The notes under the pieces were generated by a model. It ran no database searches and had not been told where the DNA came from. It worked only from the letters and a program-made list of their open reading frames with translations. A stretch of DNA of 64,000 nucleotides from NCBI GenBank assembly GCA_018714445.1, contig DVNK01000051.1, positions 1 through 64,000 of the forward strand. Reading direction: 5' to 3'. Positions 16,955-25,277 of this stretch are shown in pieces. A program made the translations under genes and the position numbers. Origin of the DNA: Candidatus Fimadaptatus faecigallinarum (lineage in GTDB: Bacteria; Bacillota; Clostridia; Christensenellales; Aristaeellaceae). Numbering within the stretch: the first letter of the stretch is position 1; each line of letters starts with the position of its first letter.

Positions 16955-17245
16955 ATGGCCTATACTATAATGTTGGCGGTGCTGCCGTTTGTAATAATAG
17001 GGCTCAATGTAGGCGCCTTTGCGCTCATGGGCATTGACAAGCGCCGCGCGCGCCGCAATCAGTGGCGCATCAGCGAACGCACGCTCTGGTTAAGCGCACT
17101 GCCATTTGCCGCGCCCGGCGCATATGCCGGCATGCGCGCATTCCACCACAAGACGCGTCATCGCGCATTCCGGTTCGGCATGCCGGCATTAGCGCTGGTT
17201 CAACTTGCGTTAATGGCATGGCTGAGCTATATAGTGCTGCGCTGA
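16955..17245 (+). CDS. DUF1294 family membrane protein
   Basis: 'NVGAFALMGIDKRRARRNQWRISERTLWLSALPFAAPGAYAGMRAFHHKTRH'; start 16955 preceded by TTGGAGGG. Confidence 0.88.
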   Translation: MAYTIMLAVLPFVIIGLNVGAFALMGIDKRRARRNQWRISERTLWLSALPFAAPGAYAGMRAFHHKTRHRAFRFGMPALALVQLALMAWLSYIVLR

Positions 17246-17976
17246 GCGCCGATGATGTGCAGCACTGCCTCACGCGCCAGCATTATGCCCGCAACCGGCG
17301 GTACGAACATGGTCGAACCTGGAGTCGCACGCCGCGCTCTTGATTCATCAGATGTACCGTCCGAGTACGCATCTGGTTCAACGCGCGGTGGAGTCGGCTG
17401 CTCGCGCGAATACACGACCTTGAGCGCCGATACGCCGCGCTTGCGCAGCTCGCGCCTCATAACACGGCACAGCGGACATACATCCGTCGAATAGATGTCG
17501 GCGACCTCCAGCCGCGTCGGGTCGAACTTGTTTCCGGTACCCATGCAGCTTATAAGCGGCACATCCATGCCGATGCACAACTCGGCCAACGCAAGCTTGG
17601 CTGCTACCATGTCGACCGCATCTATAACGTAGTCCACATCCGTGCCAAACGGCGCCGCATCCCCGGGCATGAACATGCGCGCCAACGCATCTACGCGCAT
17701 TTCAGGATTGATGTCCAACATGCGCCGGCGCGCCGCTTCGACCTTATACTCGCCCAATGTCGAATGCAGCGCAACGATCTGACGGTTTATGTTGCTCATG
17801 GCGACGCGGTCGCCGTCGATAAGCGTCACATGTCCTACGCCGCTGCGAGCCAGCGTCTCGGCGGTAAATCCGCCCACGCCCCCTACGCCAAACAGCACTA
17901 CATGCGCCTGCGCGAGCCGGCTCAGCGCATCTGAGCCTATCAGCATGTTCAACCTGTCAAATTCGCCCGCCATCAC
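17227..17976 (-). CDS. tcdA: tRNA threonylcarbamoyladenosine dehydratase (TcdA/CsdL-type ThiF/E1-like)
   Basis: 'VVLFGVGGVGGFTAETLARSGVGHVTLIDGDRVAMSNINRQ' and 'CPLCRVMRRELRKRGV'. Confidence 0.9.
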   Translation of the reverse strand: MMAGEFDRLNMLIGSDALSRLAQAHVVLFGVGGVGGFTAETLARSGVGHVTLIDGDRVAMSNINRQIVALHSTLGEYKVEAARRRMLDINPEMRVDALARMFMPGDAAPFGTDVDYVIDAVDMVAAKLALAELCIGMDVPLISCMGTGNKFDPTRLEVADIYSTDVCPLCRVMRRELRKRGVSALKVVYSREQPTPPRVEPDAYSDGTSDESRARRATPGSTMFVPPVAGIMLAREAVLHIIGAQRSTI

Positions 17977-19172
17977 TGCCCTCCGAGCTTCGAATACTCC
18001 GATAGTATCGCCGCTGCATCCAGCTGCGCCGGCGCGCCGCCCTGCGCAAAGTTGGGCCTGCCGCCGCCGCGTCCGCCGTATTCGCTCAGCGCTGCGCGCA
18101 TAAACCTGCCCATGTCGCCCTGCACATCGTCTGCACGCGCAAATACGGCAATGTCGCCCGCTGAATCCGCCGAACCTGCCATCAGCAACGCAACTGTACC
18201 CGGCTGCTCTATCAGTTCCGACGCCGCGCGTATCAGCGCCTCGCGCCCAGCCTTATCGAATCTATGCGCCACAACGCGCACGCCCTGCACATCCTGCGCC
18301 GAGTTCAACAGCTCCGGCAGCTCGCGCATAAGCTCAGCCTGACGCAGCACGGCTACCTCATGGCCGCGTTCGCGAGCCTCATCCAGCACGCGCTGAGTCG
18401 CCTCAACCAGATCCTCATGCGTCGCACTCAGCAGCAACCCGGCATCGCGACATGCCAGCGCCTCGTCATGCAACCGCTGATACGCCCGTGAGCCGCACAG
18501 GAACGAAAACCGCGTCTTGCCGCGCGCCGGATGCGCTCCCAGCACCGCGATCAACCCGATCTGACCGCTGGACGTGGGATGTGTTCCACAGCACGCTACG
18601 CATTCAAAATCGCCGGTCATGACTATGCGTATGTTCTCGCTGACCGTTGGCCGCTTGCGCAGCGGCAAAGTAGCAAGCTCCTCATCGCTGGGAAACCACT
18701 GTCTTACCGGCAGGTCGCGCCAGATCAGCTCATTTACATCCTGCTCAAGCTGATTGAGCTGCTCTCTTGAGGGAGCCTGCTTCAGGTCAGTGTCTATCGT
18801 GCACTCCTGAGCGCCTATGTGCAATCCATACGTATAGCCGCCAAACCGCTTGTATATCGCCCAGCTGAGCAGATGCTGACCGCCATGCTGCTGCATGTTC
18901 GAAAACCTGCGCGCCCAGTCTATCGCGCCATGCACTGTACCGGACAACGGCGCGTCGACTATATGGCAGATGTCTTCACCCTCCTCCTGTACGTCCAGCA
19001 CCTGTGCGCCGCCCAGCGTACCCAGGTCGCATGGTTGCCCACCTGCCTCGGCATAGAATGCCGTGCGATCCAGCACTACGGCGTATCTGCCGTCATCAAG
19101 CGCCTTACAGCTGAGCACCTGCGCGTCAAATTCACGGATGGTCACGTCGTCATGGAACAATTTATGCGTCAT
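17973..19172 (-). CDS. Alanyl-tRNA editing protein (AlaX-like, with DHHA1 domain)
   Basis: 'LDRTAFYAEAGGQPCDLGTL', 'QQHGGQHLLSWAI', 'CVACCGTHPTSSGQIGLI', C-terminal 'GRGGGRPNFAQGG' DHHA1 motif. Confidence 0.9.
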   Translation of the reverse strand: MTHKLFHDDVTIREFDAQVLSCKALDDGRYAVVLDRTAFYAEAGGQPCDLGTLGGAQVLDVQEEGEDICHIVDAPLSGTVHGAIDWARRFSNMQQHGGQHLLSWAIYKRFGGYTYGLHIGAQECTIDTDLKQAPSREQLNQLEQDVNELIWRDLPVRQWFPSDEELATLPLRKRPTVSENIRIVMTGDFECVACCGTHPTSSGQIGLIAVLGAHPARGKTRFSFLCGSRAYQRLHDEALACRDAGLLLSATHEDLVEATQRVLDEARERGHEVAVLRQAELMRELPELLNSAQDVQGVRVVAHRFDKAGREALIRAASELIEQPGTVALLMAGSADSAGDIAVFARADDVQGDMGRFMRAALSEYGGRGGGRPNFAQGGAPAQLDAAAILSEYSKLGGQ

Positions 19173-19267: not shown

Positions 19268-21298
19268 CTAGCCTTCATTGCCTGTCGGAAGCAGCTCGCC
19301 ATCCAACCTGTGCACCAGCTTGGATATGTACTCGCGCGCCTGGCTTGCCAGAAGCATCTGCTGTTCAGGCGTAGGCACGCTGTCGCCCATCAGTCCTACA
19401 AACTGGCTGACCTTCAACCCCAGCGCCAGCTGCATCTCCTGATCCGAACCGCGCGGACTGACCAAATAGTAGCAAAGCAGCGAATCGCGCTGACCTATGC
19501 GGTGAGCACGGTCTTCAGCCTGCGAATGAACCGCCGGCGACCAGTCAAGCTCGCCAAACACTACACATGTAGCCTTTTGAAGGTTCAATCCGCTCGCTGA
19601 ACGCAGCGATATACAGCAAAGCGCAGTCTCTCCGTCCATGAATGCCCTGACCGCCGCATCCTTTTCGGATTCGCTCTCGCGGCCGGTTATGAACACCGGG
19701 TGCGCGCGCTTTAATTCGCGCCGGTATATGTCCATCACCGCATGATGATGCGCAAACAACAACACCCGCTCGCCCGCCTCCAGCAGAGCGCGCACACATG
19801 CGCACACATACGGCGCCTTGGCTATGCCGGTTGCCTGGCGCTCGGTCTGCGATATCGCATCCTCGATTATCGCGCGACGCGATGCGTCCGTCTCACCACG
19901 CAGCGTGCGCAGTGCGTCGACAACTGGGCGCATGTATTCACGGTATGCCTCGTCGTCCCAGTCGATCGACTGCACCAGCCGGCGCTTGGGCGGCAGCTCG
20001 GGCAGCACCTCCCGCTTGGTGCGCCTGAGCATCAGTCCCTCGCGCTTGAGATGCTCGCCCAGTTCCTCGGGCCGCGCGACTATGTCGCTGCCATAGCCGC
20101 AGCACCACTCGCGCGTGAAGCTCTCCCAATCGCCCAGGAAGTGGTAATCTATGACGTTTATCACATTCCATATCTCGCCGCCGCGATTGTATATCGGCGT
20201 GCCCGACAGGCCTATCACTGTCTCGCAGTCGCCGGCCAGCAGCGTCGCCGCCGAATACTTTTCAGTGCCCGCGCGCCTCAGTTCCTGAACCTCATCAAAC
20301 ACCACGGCGCGAAAGTTCTGGCGCGGCAGCACCTTTTTCCAACCCCGCAGCAGCAGGTAGTGGATTATGTACACGTCGGCCTCAGGCAACTCATACGGCG
20401 TGAGCCCGCGCACGATGTGCACGCGCGTGCCGCCCGGCAAATCCACAAACCGCGCGATCTCGCGCTCCCAGTTGCGCACCAGATGCGGCGGCGCAACGAC
20501 TATCGCCGGAAATGCTCCGCGCGCACACAGCAGCGCCAACGCCTGCACCGTCTTGCCCAGGCCCATTTCGTCCGCCAGCAGCGCGCGCGGATTGTCCATC
20601 AGAAAGCCCAGCCCCAATTGCTGAAACGGCATCAGCTCGCCCGTGAATGTGGCCGGCGGCCGCACACGCGATGGGTTGGCGCGCGCCCGCTCGCGCCGCG
20701 CAGCATACTCGCGTGCCGAGGCTATTGCTTTTTGCCAGCGCGCGCGGTCGCGTTCAGCCACCTCCAGCGGATAACGCAACATAAGCCAGTTCAGTTCGCC
20801 TATGATCCGCGCATGCGCCGCAAACCGAGCCACGCCGCGTCCACGTCCATCGCACCCCGGAAACAATCGCTTGGCCAGTTCGACCACACATGGTTCGCCG
20901 CGTATCGTCCATACCCGACTGCGGGCATTGTAACTCAACGTGCCATAGCTATGTACTCGCGCATCCGGCTCGGCCAGGTACGGCGGTAGCCAGCCAGCCT
21001 GTAAAGCCGCCGTCTGATCCGCATCGGCAGTATCCATTGCGCGCGCATCATCCATGCCCCTTCCGCATTCGTCAAGCGCGTCCGGCGCATCTGTACCTGC
21101 CCCGCACGTTTCAGCCAAGCTCTGCGGATCGCCCGTCTCCGCGTCAGGGCTGCACTCCGCAGACTTGGGCTCAGTTGACAAGCGCTGCATAGGCTGCTCA
21201 TCCGCAATGTTTTCAGCACCAGCGTCCGAGTCCTCGGCATCGCCATAGCGCTGACGTATGTACTCGTCGCGCGACGCATATATTTCCCGCGCCTGCAT
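19268..21298 (-). CDS. SNF2-family DEAD/DEAH-box helicase
   Basis: 'LLADEMGLGKTVQALALL', 'VVFDEVQELRR', 'GLSGTPIYNRGGEIW', 'SLRSASGLNLQKAT', 'QAEDRAHRIGQ'; start taken as Met 21298 (ORF open to 21532). Confidence 0.9.
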   Translation of the reverse strand: MQAREIYASRDEYIRQRYGDAEDSDAGAENIADEQPMQRLSTEPKSAECSPDAETGDPQSLAETCGAGTDAPDALDECGRGMDDARAMDTADADQTAALQAGWLPPYLAEPDARVHSYGTLSYNARSRVWTIRGEPCVVELAKRLFPGCDGRGRGVARFAAHARIIGELNWLMLRYPLEVAERDRARWQKAIASAREYAARRERARANPSRVRPPATFTGELMPFQQLGLGFLMDNPRALLADEMGLGKTVQALALLCARGAFPAIVVAPPHLVRNWEREIARFVDLPGGTRVHIVRGLTPYELPEADVYIIHYLLLRGWKKVLPRQNFRAVVFDEVQELRRAGTEKYSAATLLAGDCETVIGLSGTPIYNRGGEIWNVINVIDYHFLGDWESFTREWCCGYGSDIVARPEELGEHLKREGLMLRRTKREVLPELPPKRRLVQSIDWDDEAYREYMRPVVDALRTLRGETDASRRAIIEDAISQTERQATGIAKAPYVCACVRALLEAGERVLLFAHHHAVMDIYRRELKRAHPVFITGRESESEKDAAVRAFMDGETALCCISLRSASGLNLQKATCVVFGELDWSPAVHSQAEDRAHRIGQRDSLLCYYLVSPRGSDQEMQLALGLKVSQFVGLMGDSVPTPEQQMLLASQAREYISKLVHRLDGELLPTGNEG

Positions 21299-21327
21299 GG
21301 CGTGCTTGAAAGATTTCGACCTGCGCC

Positions 21328-21708
21328 TCAAGGCAACGCCACCCCCCACAGCCTGGCCAGCGCTACACACCGTACCGGTACCCCGCCTATCGCGCGCGGC
21401 AACCGCAGGTCGCCCGGTGCGACTACGATCAGCGCTCCTACTGCTCCACTTAACGCATATCTGCGCAGCTGGCTGAGCACTGCCGCGCGCGCAGGCTTGC
21501 CTTTCTTCACCTCTATGCCCACGCCGCCGCACATAAAGTCAATGCGCCTGCCCGGACCCAGCCTCACCTCATGCGCTACGGGCAGTTCTGCCTGCTCAAG
21601 CGCCCGCTCTACCAATTCATGCATATCATACTCACCCGGCGCAGCGGGCAGCCTTAACACGCTCAGCGCGCGCGCTATCTCCTCCACGCGCCGCATGACC
21701 TCTTCCAC
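21328..21708 (-). CDS. Small putative PD-(D/E)XK (VRR-NUC-like) nuclease
   Basis: 'VRLGPGRRIDFMCGGVGIEVKKGKPARAAVLSQLRRYALSGAVGALIVVAPGD' gives D...ExK plus an arrangement expected of this fold; GTG start 21708 (or ATG 21696) after GGAGGTGA; located immediately upstream of the SNF2 ORF. Confidence 0.6.
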   Translation of the reverse strand: MEEVMRRVEEIARALSVLRLPAAPGEYDMHELVERALEQAELPVAHEVRLGPGRRIDFMCGGVGIEVKKGKPARAAVLSQLRRYALSGAVGALIVVAPGDLRLPRAIGGVPVRCVALARLWGVALP

Positions 21709-21855: not shown

Positions 21856-22353
21856 GTGAAAGATACCAAGACTAACGCCATGCGCATACTGGAAGGCCTG
21901 CGCATAGCCTTCGACGTACACTCATACGACACATCCGACGGCGCACTGGACGGCGTAACCGCGGCGCGCAAGCTCGGCATAGATCCGGCCCGCGTATTCA
22001 AGACGCTGGTGACACAGGGCAAATCCCGCGCGCACTATGTGTTTGTGATACCGGTGGCCTGCGAACTTGACCTCAAGGCCGCCGCCGCTTGTGTGGGAGA
22101 AAAGTCAGTCGAAATGATACCGCAAAAAGAACTGCTCAAGACCACCGGCTATGTGCACGGCGGCTGCAGCCCGATAGGCATGAAAAAGCAGTTCCCCACC
22201 GCAATAGACATGTCCGCGCTGGAGCAGTCGCGCATATGCGTGTCGGCCGGGCGCGTGGGGCTTCAGGTCGACCTCGATCCGCGCGCACTCATCGCCGCCA
22301 CCGGCGCGCAGACGGCTCACCTGGCGGTGGCGCGCACTGATTCGGAGGTGTAA
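21856..22353 (+). CDS. ybaK: Cys-tRNA(Pro)/Cys-tRNA(Cys) deacylase YbaK/EbsC
   Basis: 'TNAMRILEGLRIAFDVHSYDTSDGALDGVTAARKLGIDPARVFKTLV', 'TTGYVHGGCSPIGMKKQFPTAID' are YbaK hallmarks. Confidence 0.94.
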   Translation: MKDTKTNAMRILEGLRIAFDVHSYDTSDGALDGVTAARKLGIDPARVFKTLVTQGKSRAHYVFVIPVACELDLKAAAACVGEKSVEMIPQKELLKTTGYVHGGCSPIGMKKQFPTAIDMSALEQSRICVSAGRVGLQVDLDPRALIAATGAQTAHLAVARTDSEV

Positions 22354-22355
22354 AT

Positions 22356-23636
22356 TTGTCTGTTGAACGAGTAAAGAAGTATCTGGAACAATTCGGCGCT
22401 CAGCAGCGCGTAATGGAGTTCGACAAGTCCAGCGCAACGGTCGAGTTGGCCGCTCAGGCAGTAGGCGCGGATGCCGCGCGCATAGCCAAGACACTGTCGT
22501 TTGAAACCGATGGCGGCTGTATGTTGCTCGTTGCCGCCGGCGACGCGCGCGTGGACAACCCCGCATTCAAGCATCGCTTTGGCCGTAAGGCGCGCATGCT
22601 TACACCTGAGCGCGCGCTGGAATTGACGGGTTATGCCGTCGGCGGCGTGTGCCCGTTCGATGTAAAGTCCGATTCGGTCGAGATATACCTGGACGAGTCG
22701 CTCCGACGCTTTGGCACGGTTTACCCCGCCTGCGGAAGTTCCAACTCGGCAATCGAGCTGACCTGCGATGAGCTGGAGCGCTTTTCGCATGCCGATGGCT
22801 GGGTGGACGTATGCCGCGGCTGGCGCGAAACCTATCCGCGCGTGATCGATATGCATGCCCACATGTTCCCCGACGCCATAGCTCAGCGCACCATGGACAA
22901 GCTCGTGACCGTAGCCGATGGTCTGCGCCCAGTGACCGACGCAACTCACGACGGCACAGTGCGCCATATGCGCAACTGCGCGATATCCGCGTTTGCCGCG
23001 CTCCCAATCGCGACCAAGCCCACGCAGTGCACGTCGATCAACAACTGGACCGCGTCCATGTCCGACGACTATGTGCTGGGCTTTGGCACGGTGCACCCCG
23101 ACTTTGAAAATCCGATAGCCGAGATAGAGCGCGTTAAGGCGCTGGGGTTGCACGGAATAAAGCTCCATCCGGACTATCAGCACATCTATCCCGACGAGGA
23201 GCGCATGTTCCCGCTCTATGAAAAGATGGCCGAACTCGGGCTGCCGGTAGTGCTGCATGCGGGCTGGGATCCGGTTTCGCCCGATCTGACCCGCTCTACT
23301 CCTGAACGGCTGCGCAGGGTGCTGGACCGCGTACCAGGGCTGACGATGATAGCCGCGCACATGGGCGGCATGAAGATGTCAGACGACGTCATTAAGTATC
23401 TGTGCGGATGCGATGTCTACTTCGACACGTCAATGAGTTATGTATACCTGACGCCTGAGCGCTTCCGCCTGCTGATCGATCAGCACGGCGTTGACCACAT
23501 ACTCTTTGGCAGCGACTGTCCCTGGAGCGATGCCAAGCGTCAAATCCAGATGCTGCGCGATGTGGGCATAGAAGGCGATGCGCTGGACAAGATATTGTAC
23601 CGAAACGCCGCAAAATTGCTGGGGCTTGAGGAATAA
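22356..23636 (+). CDS. Fusion protein: N-terminal YbaK/ProX-like editing domain + C-terminal amidohydrolase (Amidohydro-rel family)
   Basis: Residues about 1-155 'SVERVKKYLEQFGAQQRVMEF...AARIAKTLSFETDGG...LTGYAVGGVCPFDVKSDS'; residues about 160-426 'VIDMHAHMFPD...GIKLHPDYQHIYPDEERMFPLYEKMAELGLPVVLHAG...AAHMGG...ILFGSDCPW'. One uninterrupted frame. Confidence 0.9.
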   Translation: MSVERVKKYLEQFGAQQRVMEFDKSSATVELAAQAVGADAARIAKTLSFETDGGCMLLVAAGDARVDNPAFKHRFGRKARMLTPERALELTGYAVGGVCPFDVKSDSVEIYLDESLRRFGTVYPACGSSNSAIELTCDELERFSHADGWVDVCRGWRETYPRVIDMHAHMFPDAIAQRTMDKLVTVADGLRPVTDATHDGTVRHMRNCAISAFAALPIATKPTQCTSINNWTASMSDDYVLGFGTVHPDFENPIAEIERVKALGLHGIKLHPDYQHIYPDEERMFPLYEKMAELGLPVVLHAGWDPVSPDLTRSTPERLRRVLDRVPGLTMIAAHMGGMKMSDDVIKYLCGCDVYFDTSMSYVYLTPERFRLLIDQHGVDHILFGSDCPWSDAKRQIQMLRDVGIEGDALDKILYRNAAKLLGLEE

Positions 23637-23837: not shown

Positions 23838-25277
23838 TTATTGCTCGCTCTGCTTACGGCGCAGGCCCACGACAGCCGCTACCGCAACCGCCGCCGACAT
23901 CAGCATCAGCGCAATGTAGAGCTGGTTGTTGCTGTTATCGCCGGTCTTGGCCAGACCTTCGTCATCCTTATCAACGAAGGTGTTGGTCACGCGGGCAGTG
24001 GTGTCCTTGGTCAGCGTACCGCTGCAGTTGCTGTAAGTGGTGTCATAGCCGTTCTCATCGGCCTCGCGCTCGCGAACCTTATACGTCGTGCCCTCGGGCA
24101 GGTCGTATATCGTCACGCTCTCGCCACCCTTGAGGGTGATGCGATCGCCGCTCTTGATGCGGTCGCCAGTGGAGGTCTTGTAGCTGCCGTCGGCGTCAAA
24201 GGTCACGGTCATGGTGAACTTGTCGCTCTTGTCAGCGCCGTCGCCCTTGAGCACCTTGGTGATCTTCAGATCATAGTAGTTGCTGGGCTTCTCGGTCGGC
24301 TCGGGAGCATCGCCCGATACGAAGGTGTTGACGTAAGCCACAGTGGTGCGCGCGCCGCTCAGCACATCAAAGGATGCAACAGTGCTCGGCACCCACTCGC
24401 CGCCGTTGACCTGGTTCTTGGTGGTGCAGCCTATCGAAGTGAGCTGCTGCGACAGCGCGTAATTGGCCGCCGGCAGGCCGGCTATCACCGCGGTCTTGCC
24501 CGCAGGCACAGTGAAGCTGCCGTCCGCGCCCAACGCAACCTGCGTACCGTCTATCTCAACGGTGCCAACCACCGGCGCACCGTTGGAAGTCAGCTTATAG
24601 GTGAAGCTGGCGTCGCCCAAGTCGGCCATGTTGCCGTCCTTGGAAACGCTGATCGCAACTTCGCCCTTTTCTACCGGGGTAGCGGTTACTTCAGGAGTCG
24701 CGGTTACTTCAGGAGTCGCGGTGACCTCAGGGGTCGCAGTGACCTCAGGAGTCGCGGTGACTTCCGGGGTCGGGGTAACCTCGGGCGTCGCGGTCACTTC
24801 AGGCGTCGCAGTCGGAGCAGCGCCATACACATTCATGAAAGCCACCTTGGTGGTGCCTTCGCCAACGCTTACCGACGCGCTGTTGCTCTCGGTCGCCGCG
24901 CCGCCGTTCACGCTGACGCTGACCTTGGCGTTCGCAGGCGCCAGTTCAGTCACAGTAAAGCTGCCAGTCACGCCGGTTATCGTCGCGCTCTGACCAGCCT
25001 TGAGTCCTATCGTCGAGCCGCTGCTTATGTTGCTGCTCGTTCCGCCGACCACACAGGTCGCCTCGAACGCCGTAGCGCTGGTTATAGTGACCGTGTAGGT
25101 CGCGCCGGCGTCATCGCCCTGAGCGCCAACGCTTATTTCAAGCGTACCGCCGGCCTGTTGCGGGGTTCCCGCCGTATCGCCCTCGGCCAGCGCGGCCATG
25201 GGCATAAGGCATACCAACATAGCGGTAATAATGGCCAGGATCCTGGCAAACCCGGAATTATTCAGTTTACCAAACAT
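23838..25277 (-). CDS. Cell-surface protein: signal peptide, Cna-B/SpaA-like domains, TPEV repeat linker, sortase-type C-terminus
   Basis: Signal peptide 'ILAIITAMLVCLMPMAALAEG'; 'LKGGESVTIYDLPEGTTYKVREREADENGYDTTYSN'; C-terminus 'GLAKTGDNSNNQLYIALMLMSAAVAVAAVVGLRRKQSEQ' (LAKTG, TM, basic tail). Confidence 0.85.
   Translation of the reverse strand: MFGKLNNSGFARILAIITAMLVCLMPMAALAEGDTAGTPQQAGGTLEISVGAQGDDAGATYTVTITSATAFEATCVVGGTSSNISSGSTIGLKAGQSATITGVTGSFTVTELAPANAKVSVSVNGGAATESNSASVSVGEGTTKVAFMNVYGAAPTATPEVTATPEVTPTPEVTATPEVTATPEVTATPEVTATPEVTATPVEKGEVAISVSKDGNMADLGDASFTYKLTSNGAPVVGTVEIDGTQVALGADGSFTVPAGKTAVIAGLPAANYALSQQLTSIGCTTKNQVNGGEWVPSTVASFDVLSGARTTVAYVNTFVSGDAPEPTEKPSNYYDLKITKVLKGDGADKSDKFTMTVTFDADGSYKTSTGDRIKSGDRITLKGGESVTIYDLPEGTTYKVREREADENGYDTTYSNCSGTLTKDTTARVTNTFVDKDDEGLAKTGDNSNNQLYIALMLMSAAVAVAAVVGLRRKQSEQ
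24676..24815 (-). repeat. 18-bp coding tandem repeat (TATPEV)n
   Basis: Translation TATPEVTATPEVTPTPEVTATPEVTATPEVTATPEVTATPEVTATP; near-identical 18-nt units. Confidence 0.9.

Follow-up and report, generated by a model that had tools for sequence, protein, structure and literature searches.

How did a tRNA-editing domain and an amidohydrolase-type domain come to share one reading frame, and are their functions joined as well? The question is raised by a gene in the 64,000-nucleotide stretch of Candidatus Fimadaptatus faecigallinarum DNA that we analyzed as a whole (the window). We consider it likely, with a probability of about 0.7, that the gene arose opportunistically, when two adjacent genes became fused by stop loss, and that the two activities of the resulting bifunctional protein are independent.

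The gene (22356-23636, + strand) is a single frame of 426 aa with a TTG start and without internal stop. The initial annotation, made from the DNA letters, expected PF04073 and PF04909 in this one frame, and the Pfam scan matched both. PF04073 (tRNA_edit) lies at residues 26-143 (E=1.3e-25, 90.3 bits vs a cut-off of 25.5), and PF04909 (Amidohydro_2) at residues 164-424 (E=1e-35, 124.4 bits vs 26.4), the latter covering positions 1-289 of the 289-position profile. The protein is made of two complete domains in one polypeptide, with practically no linker between them. The editing half, a member of the INS superfamily, comprises residues 1-159 (22356-22832, +), and the Amidohydro_2 half residues 163-426 (22842-23633, +). 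As also proposed at the outset, the frame directly follows a stand-alone ybaK (21856-22353, +), gene 1 of a two-gene unit, whose product scored 182.6 bits against TIGR00011 (cut-off 153.25) and is a YbaK-type Cys-tRNA(Pro) deacylase. The Shine-Dalgarno (SD) sequence of the fusion gene, GGAGGTG (22344-22350, +), lies within the 3' end of ybaK.

We then compared both active sites with those of relatives by alignment. The residues singled out initially (the K of A-K-T-L, and the HxH, HAG, AAHMGG and GSDCPW motifs) correspond to K45 in the editing half and to H167/H169, H301, H335 and D387 in the hydrolase half. K45 (IAKTL) and the GxxxP loop (G96-P100) are invariant or nearly so across 14 aligned editing domains. 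In the hydrolase half, H167/H169 (DMHAH), H301 (LHAGWD), H335 (AAHMGG) and D387 (GSDCPW) are all present, and these five columns are invariant among 18 aligned hydrolases. When family-conserved columns were defined as those shared by at least 90% of relatives, 3 of 60 such columns deviated in the editing half and 3 of 42 in the hydrolase half. Since both values fall within the range of intact stand-alone relatives, neither half looks decayed. The initial annotation had named loss of catalytic residues in one half as a point against its reading, and both sites proved intact. An AlphaFold model of the fusion protein had a mean pLDDT of 91.5 and a pTM of 0.72; it was folded from an alignment (A4) in which the first ~20 residues of the hydrolase rows are misplaced. 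The model predicts two well-formed domains whose mutual orientation is uncertain.

The editing half had been described as a YbaK/ProX-type domain, and the assignment to YbaK did not hold. With 57.8 bits against the TIGR00011 cut-off of 153.25, it falls below the YbaK equivalog and belongs to a different branch of the INS superfamily. It shares with YbaK the superfamily, the Lys and the GxxxP loop; it differs in this score, and a true YbaK is encoded right upstream. The nearest solved relative is TTHA1699 of T. thermophilus (2cx5, 2z0k; phmmer E=3.7e-17), and a fold search with the AlphaFold model aligned the editing half to 2z0k with a TM of 0.89 (to target), an rmsd of 1.9 and 35% identity. 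2CX5 is the structure used for ProXp-x, whose reported substrates are 2-aminobutyryl-tRNA and, with weak activity, Ala-tRNA(Pro) (PMC11295145). Among solved structures, the editing half is closest to 2CX5, as a ProXp-x should be; ProXp-x is also a single-domain protein, and here PF04909 is fused. The fold, the position of the catalytic Lys and the GxxxP loop are common to the editing half and the ProXp-x/TTHA1699 type, and the length of the single-domain relatives (about 157 aa) matches as well. The differences are the C-terminal hydrolase and the loop, which reads GGVCP instead of GGVPP. Judging from these features, we regard the editing half as a ProXp-x-like candidate, which might also belong to ProXp-7, -8 or -9.

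For the hydrolase half, sequence and fold searches gave BB4693 (3irs) as the nearest relative, followed by decarboxylase-type Amidohydro_2 enzymes. The AlphaFold model matched 3irs with a TM of 0.76 (to target), and no specific NCBIfam model scored above its cut-off. BB4693, 5-carboxyvanillate decarboxylase and ACMSD have the same TIM barrel and the same HxH/His/His/Asp motifs, and the Pfam match here is full-length. Unlike these enzymes, the hydrolase half is joined to an editing domain, and it falls in a Clostridia branch of its own in which no tested member was found.

The prolyl-tRNA synthetase (ProRS) of the genome belongs to family I (592.8 bits). PF04073 occurs at three places only in the assembly, which is 91% complete: in the fusion, in ybaK, and in a 181-aa protein on another contig that, from its sequence, appears ProXp-ala-like. 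Because the two other places are ybaK and this ProXp-ala-like protein, the fusion would carry the genome's only copy of its editing type. Within about 3 kb of the ybaK-fusion pair lies a further tRNA-editing gene, which encodes an AlaX-like alanyl-tRNA editing protein (DHHA1 + tRNA_SAD, 17973-19172) beside a ThiF-family protein (pair 17227-19172, -). The window also encodes an SNF2-type helicase at 19268-21532 (-), with a long N-terminal extension from a mechanical GTG start, the true start being probably further in. Just downstream of the fusion gene, at 23838-25277 (-), a 479-aa surface-type protein is encoded that has TPEVTA repeats, DUF7601/DUF5979 domains and, towards the C-terminus, a hydrophobic stretch.

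The anatomy of the junction shows the origin of the gene. Among the matches listed, the nearest editing relatives finish with ...GWVDVCKGWREA (...WVDVCKGWREA) followed by the stop codon TAA (L007). The matching stretch of the window reads ...GWVDVCRGWRET-TAT-CCG-CGC-GTG-ATC-GAT (...WVDVCRGWRET-TAT), so that TAT (Tyr160) occupies the position of their stop codon. The hydrolase begins three codons past TAT, after the junction codons TAT-CCG-CGC (Y160 P161 R162; 22833-22841, +). Most hydrolase relatives start M-[I/V/L]-I-D, where the fusion reads R-V-I-D, and the initiator is found at the column of R162 in 27 of 35 hydrolase relatives. Measured against the genes of the window only, in which clear starts pair with the anti-SD at -8 to -12 kcal/mol and several others are mechanical ORF starts, pairing was -10.8 kcal/mol at the TTG start, -1.5 at GTG 22842, and 0 at both ATG 22851 and ATG 22863. 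The earlier view of one polypeptide lacking an internal SD sequence agrees with these values.

Two other explanations of this junction were weighed. In the first, an artefact of sequencing or assembly, the draft consensus would have lost a stop or the frame of what are really two adjacent genes. The gene comes from one draft genome, with 65 contigs and a completeness of 91.1%, the relatives found keep the genes separate, and TAT is only one base away from TAA or TAG. However, the column of the start Met is Arg (CGC), which differs from ATG at more than one base, and an SD sequence is absent at the junction; a slip would account for neither loss, although GTG 22842 is still conceivable as an SD-less start. 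The junction sequence occurs just once in the genome, which rules out a repeat-driven misjoin, and GC3 is similar on either side (0.70 and 0.73). Loss of the stop, the start Met and the ribosome site all together argues that the fusion is real and settled, not a sequencing slip, and we hold an artefact to be unlikely. In the second, one mRNA would yield two products, the hydrolase being also or mainly translated from GTG 22842 or ATG 22851, and a product from these in-frame codons would retain HxH. Yet neither codon has an SD sequence, whereas the closely spaced ybaK-fusion pair retains a strong one, and we give internal initiation very little credence.

To see how widespread the fusion is, we looked for the same architecture in other genomes, as the initial annotation had suggested. 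No other match spans both halves among the matches listed from 308 family, 391 class and 399 phylum genomes (overlapping sets), at a strict limit of 1e-62 that very distant independent fusions could escape. The carrier is one genome, the sole representative of its genus in the sets searched. Among annotated plasmids no record covered 80% of the fusion query, and nothing was found in the viral contigs scanned. Long open frames around the editing genes of four genomes (G076, G070, G118 and G084) proved not to be fusions. Homologues that always occur as separate genes had been put forward as a sign of an assembly artefact. The homologues found are indeed separate, but the artefact part of that argument is opposed by the loss of stop, Met and SD sequence described above. 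The gene is a genuine fusion of two familiar enzymes, and probably a one-off.

We wondered whether gene neighbourhoods might point to a shared substrate, because a substrate-coupled editing function had been considered possible. Such an enzyme would use its hydrolase to make or destroy a non-protein amino acid (or a derivative), and its editing half to clear tRNA mischarged with it. Both active sites are preserved, 2-aminobutyryl-tRNA is a ProXp-x substrate (PMC11295145), and a few genomes have a GNAT acetyltransferase fused with, or next to, a related editing domain. However, a homologue of this hydrolase was adjacent in 0 of the 71 editing-domain loci read, and editing genes were absent from the first set of hydrolase loci. 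Downstream of the editing gene we counted 60 Pfam families among 35 ORFs, the commonest (methyltransferases and GNAT) in few members only. In Caproiciproducens, the hydrolase homologue is preceded by an ssb-like gene and followed by a branched-chain amino acid transporter-like operon, and the stretch examined contains no editing gene. With homologues as separate genes and no adjacent hydrolase in the 71 loci, there is no conserved pointer to a shared substrate; the coupling suggested by the initial annotation is unsupported, and we judge it improbable.

The GNAT cases bear on the same point. In G297, a genome of the same order, the frame of the orthologous editing domain runs on, from the same fusion point, into a GNAT acetyltransferase. 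In the sister species, G221, the stop of the editing gene and the start of GNAT share bases (GAATGATCC, ATGA), and one extra G gives a fused frame (loci of the pair: L068:1342-2337, -, and L073:1829-2817). The G297 frame could be natural, a second fusion at the C-terminus, or stem from a one-base indel in long reads. The editing gene of a third species in this genus has no GNAT beside it, which again speaks against coupling. Since unrelated genes frequently lie close up against the editing gene, C-terminal fusions arise from time to time; these cases do not demonstrate a common substrate. Two other arrangements were seen. A Cetobacterium somerae plasmid (L074, NZ_CP092521.1, 3487-4998) carries GNAT, a YbaK/EbsC-family editing gene and GNAT with overlapping ends, and in G304 the editing gene (L095:1323-1808, -) is followed 2 bases on by a YbaK-like gene, the reverse of the order seen in the window.

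Taken together, we favor the stop-loss fusion of two neighbours with independent activities. The ancestor would have carried a ProXp-x-like trans-editing gene directly upstream of an Amidohydro_2 gene on one transcript (ybaK - editing gene - hydrolase), a former adjacency that we infer; no relative examined showed this arrangement. The stop codon of the editing gene would have mutated to TAT, after which the start Met and ribosome site of the hydrolase may have decayed, so that the hydrolase would now be produced solely as the C-terminal part of the fused protein. Deacylation of mischarged tRNA through the K45/GxxxP-loop site is the most likely role of the editing half, which, with the YbaK and ProXp-ala-like proteins of the genome, may cover the family I ProRS. 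The C-terminal TIM barrel would have an activity of its own, that of a metal-dependent hydrolase or decarboxylase with a putative small substrate. The two halves would thus be co-expressed in a fixed ratio, without their substrates being coupled.

INS-superfamily editing proteins are called single-domain except for the ProRS INS domain, and ProXp-ala fusions are noted too (PMC11295145, a 2024 review). Set against this review, the editing-hydrolase fusion is an undescribed architecture: in the literature searched, we found no description of the editing + Amidohydro_2 combination, in keeping with the initial annotation, which knew of no established role for it. As in the ProXp-ala-ProRS and plant ProXp-ala-CTD fusions (PMC11295145), an INS-superfamily editing domain is joined to another domain; there, the partners serve tRNA charging or binding, whereas here the partner has a small-molecule hydrolase fold. 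The novelty is the domain combination within a known superfamily.

Little is learned on mechanism unless the two substrates turn out to be linked. We think there is only a slim chance that the protein both detoxifies and proofreads, its hydrolase processing a non-protein amino acid or precursor that the editing half strips from tRNA; if it does, the editing-GNAT fusion would be a second case of the principle with different chemistry. Naming such proteins after one half misleads, which is a warning for annotation pipelines. The junction itself illustrates how a stop-loss fusion settles, the start and ribosome site of the second gene being gone along with the stop of the first.
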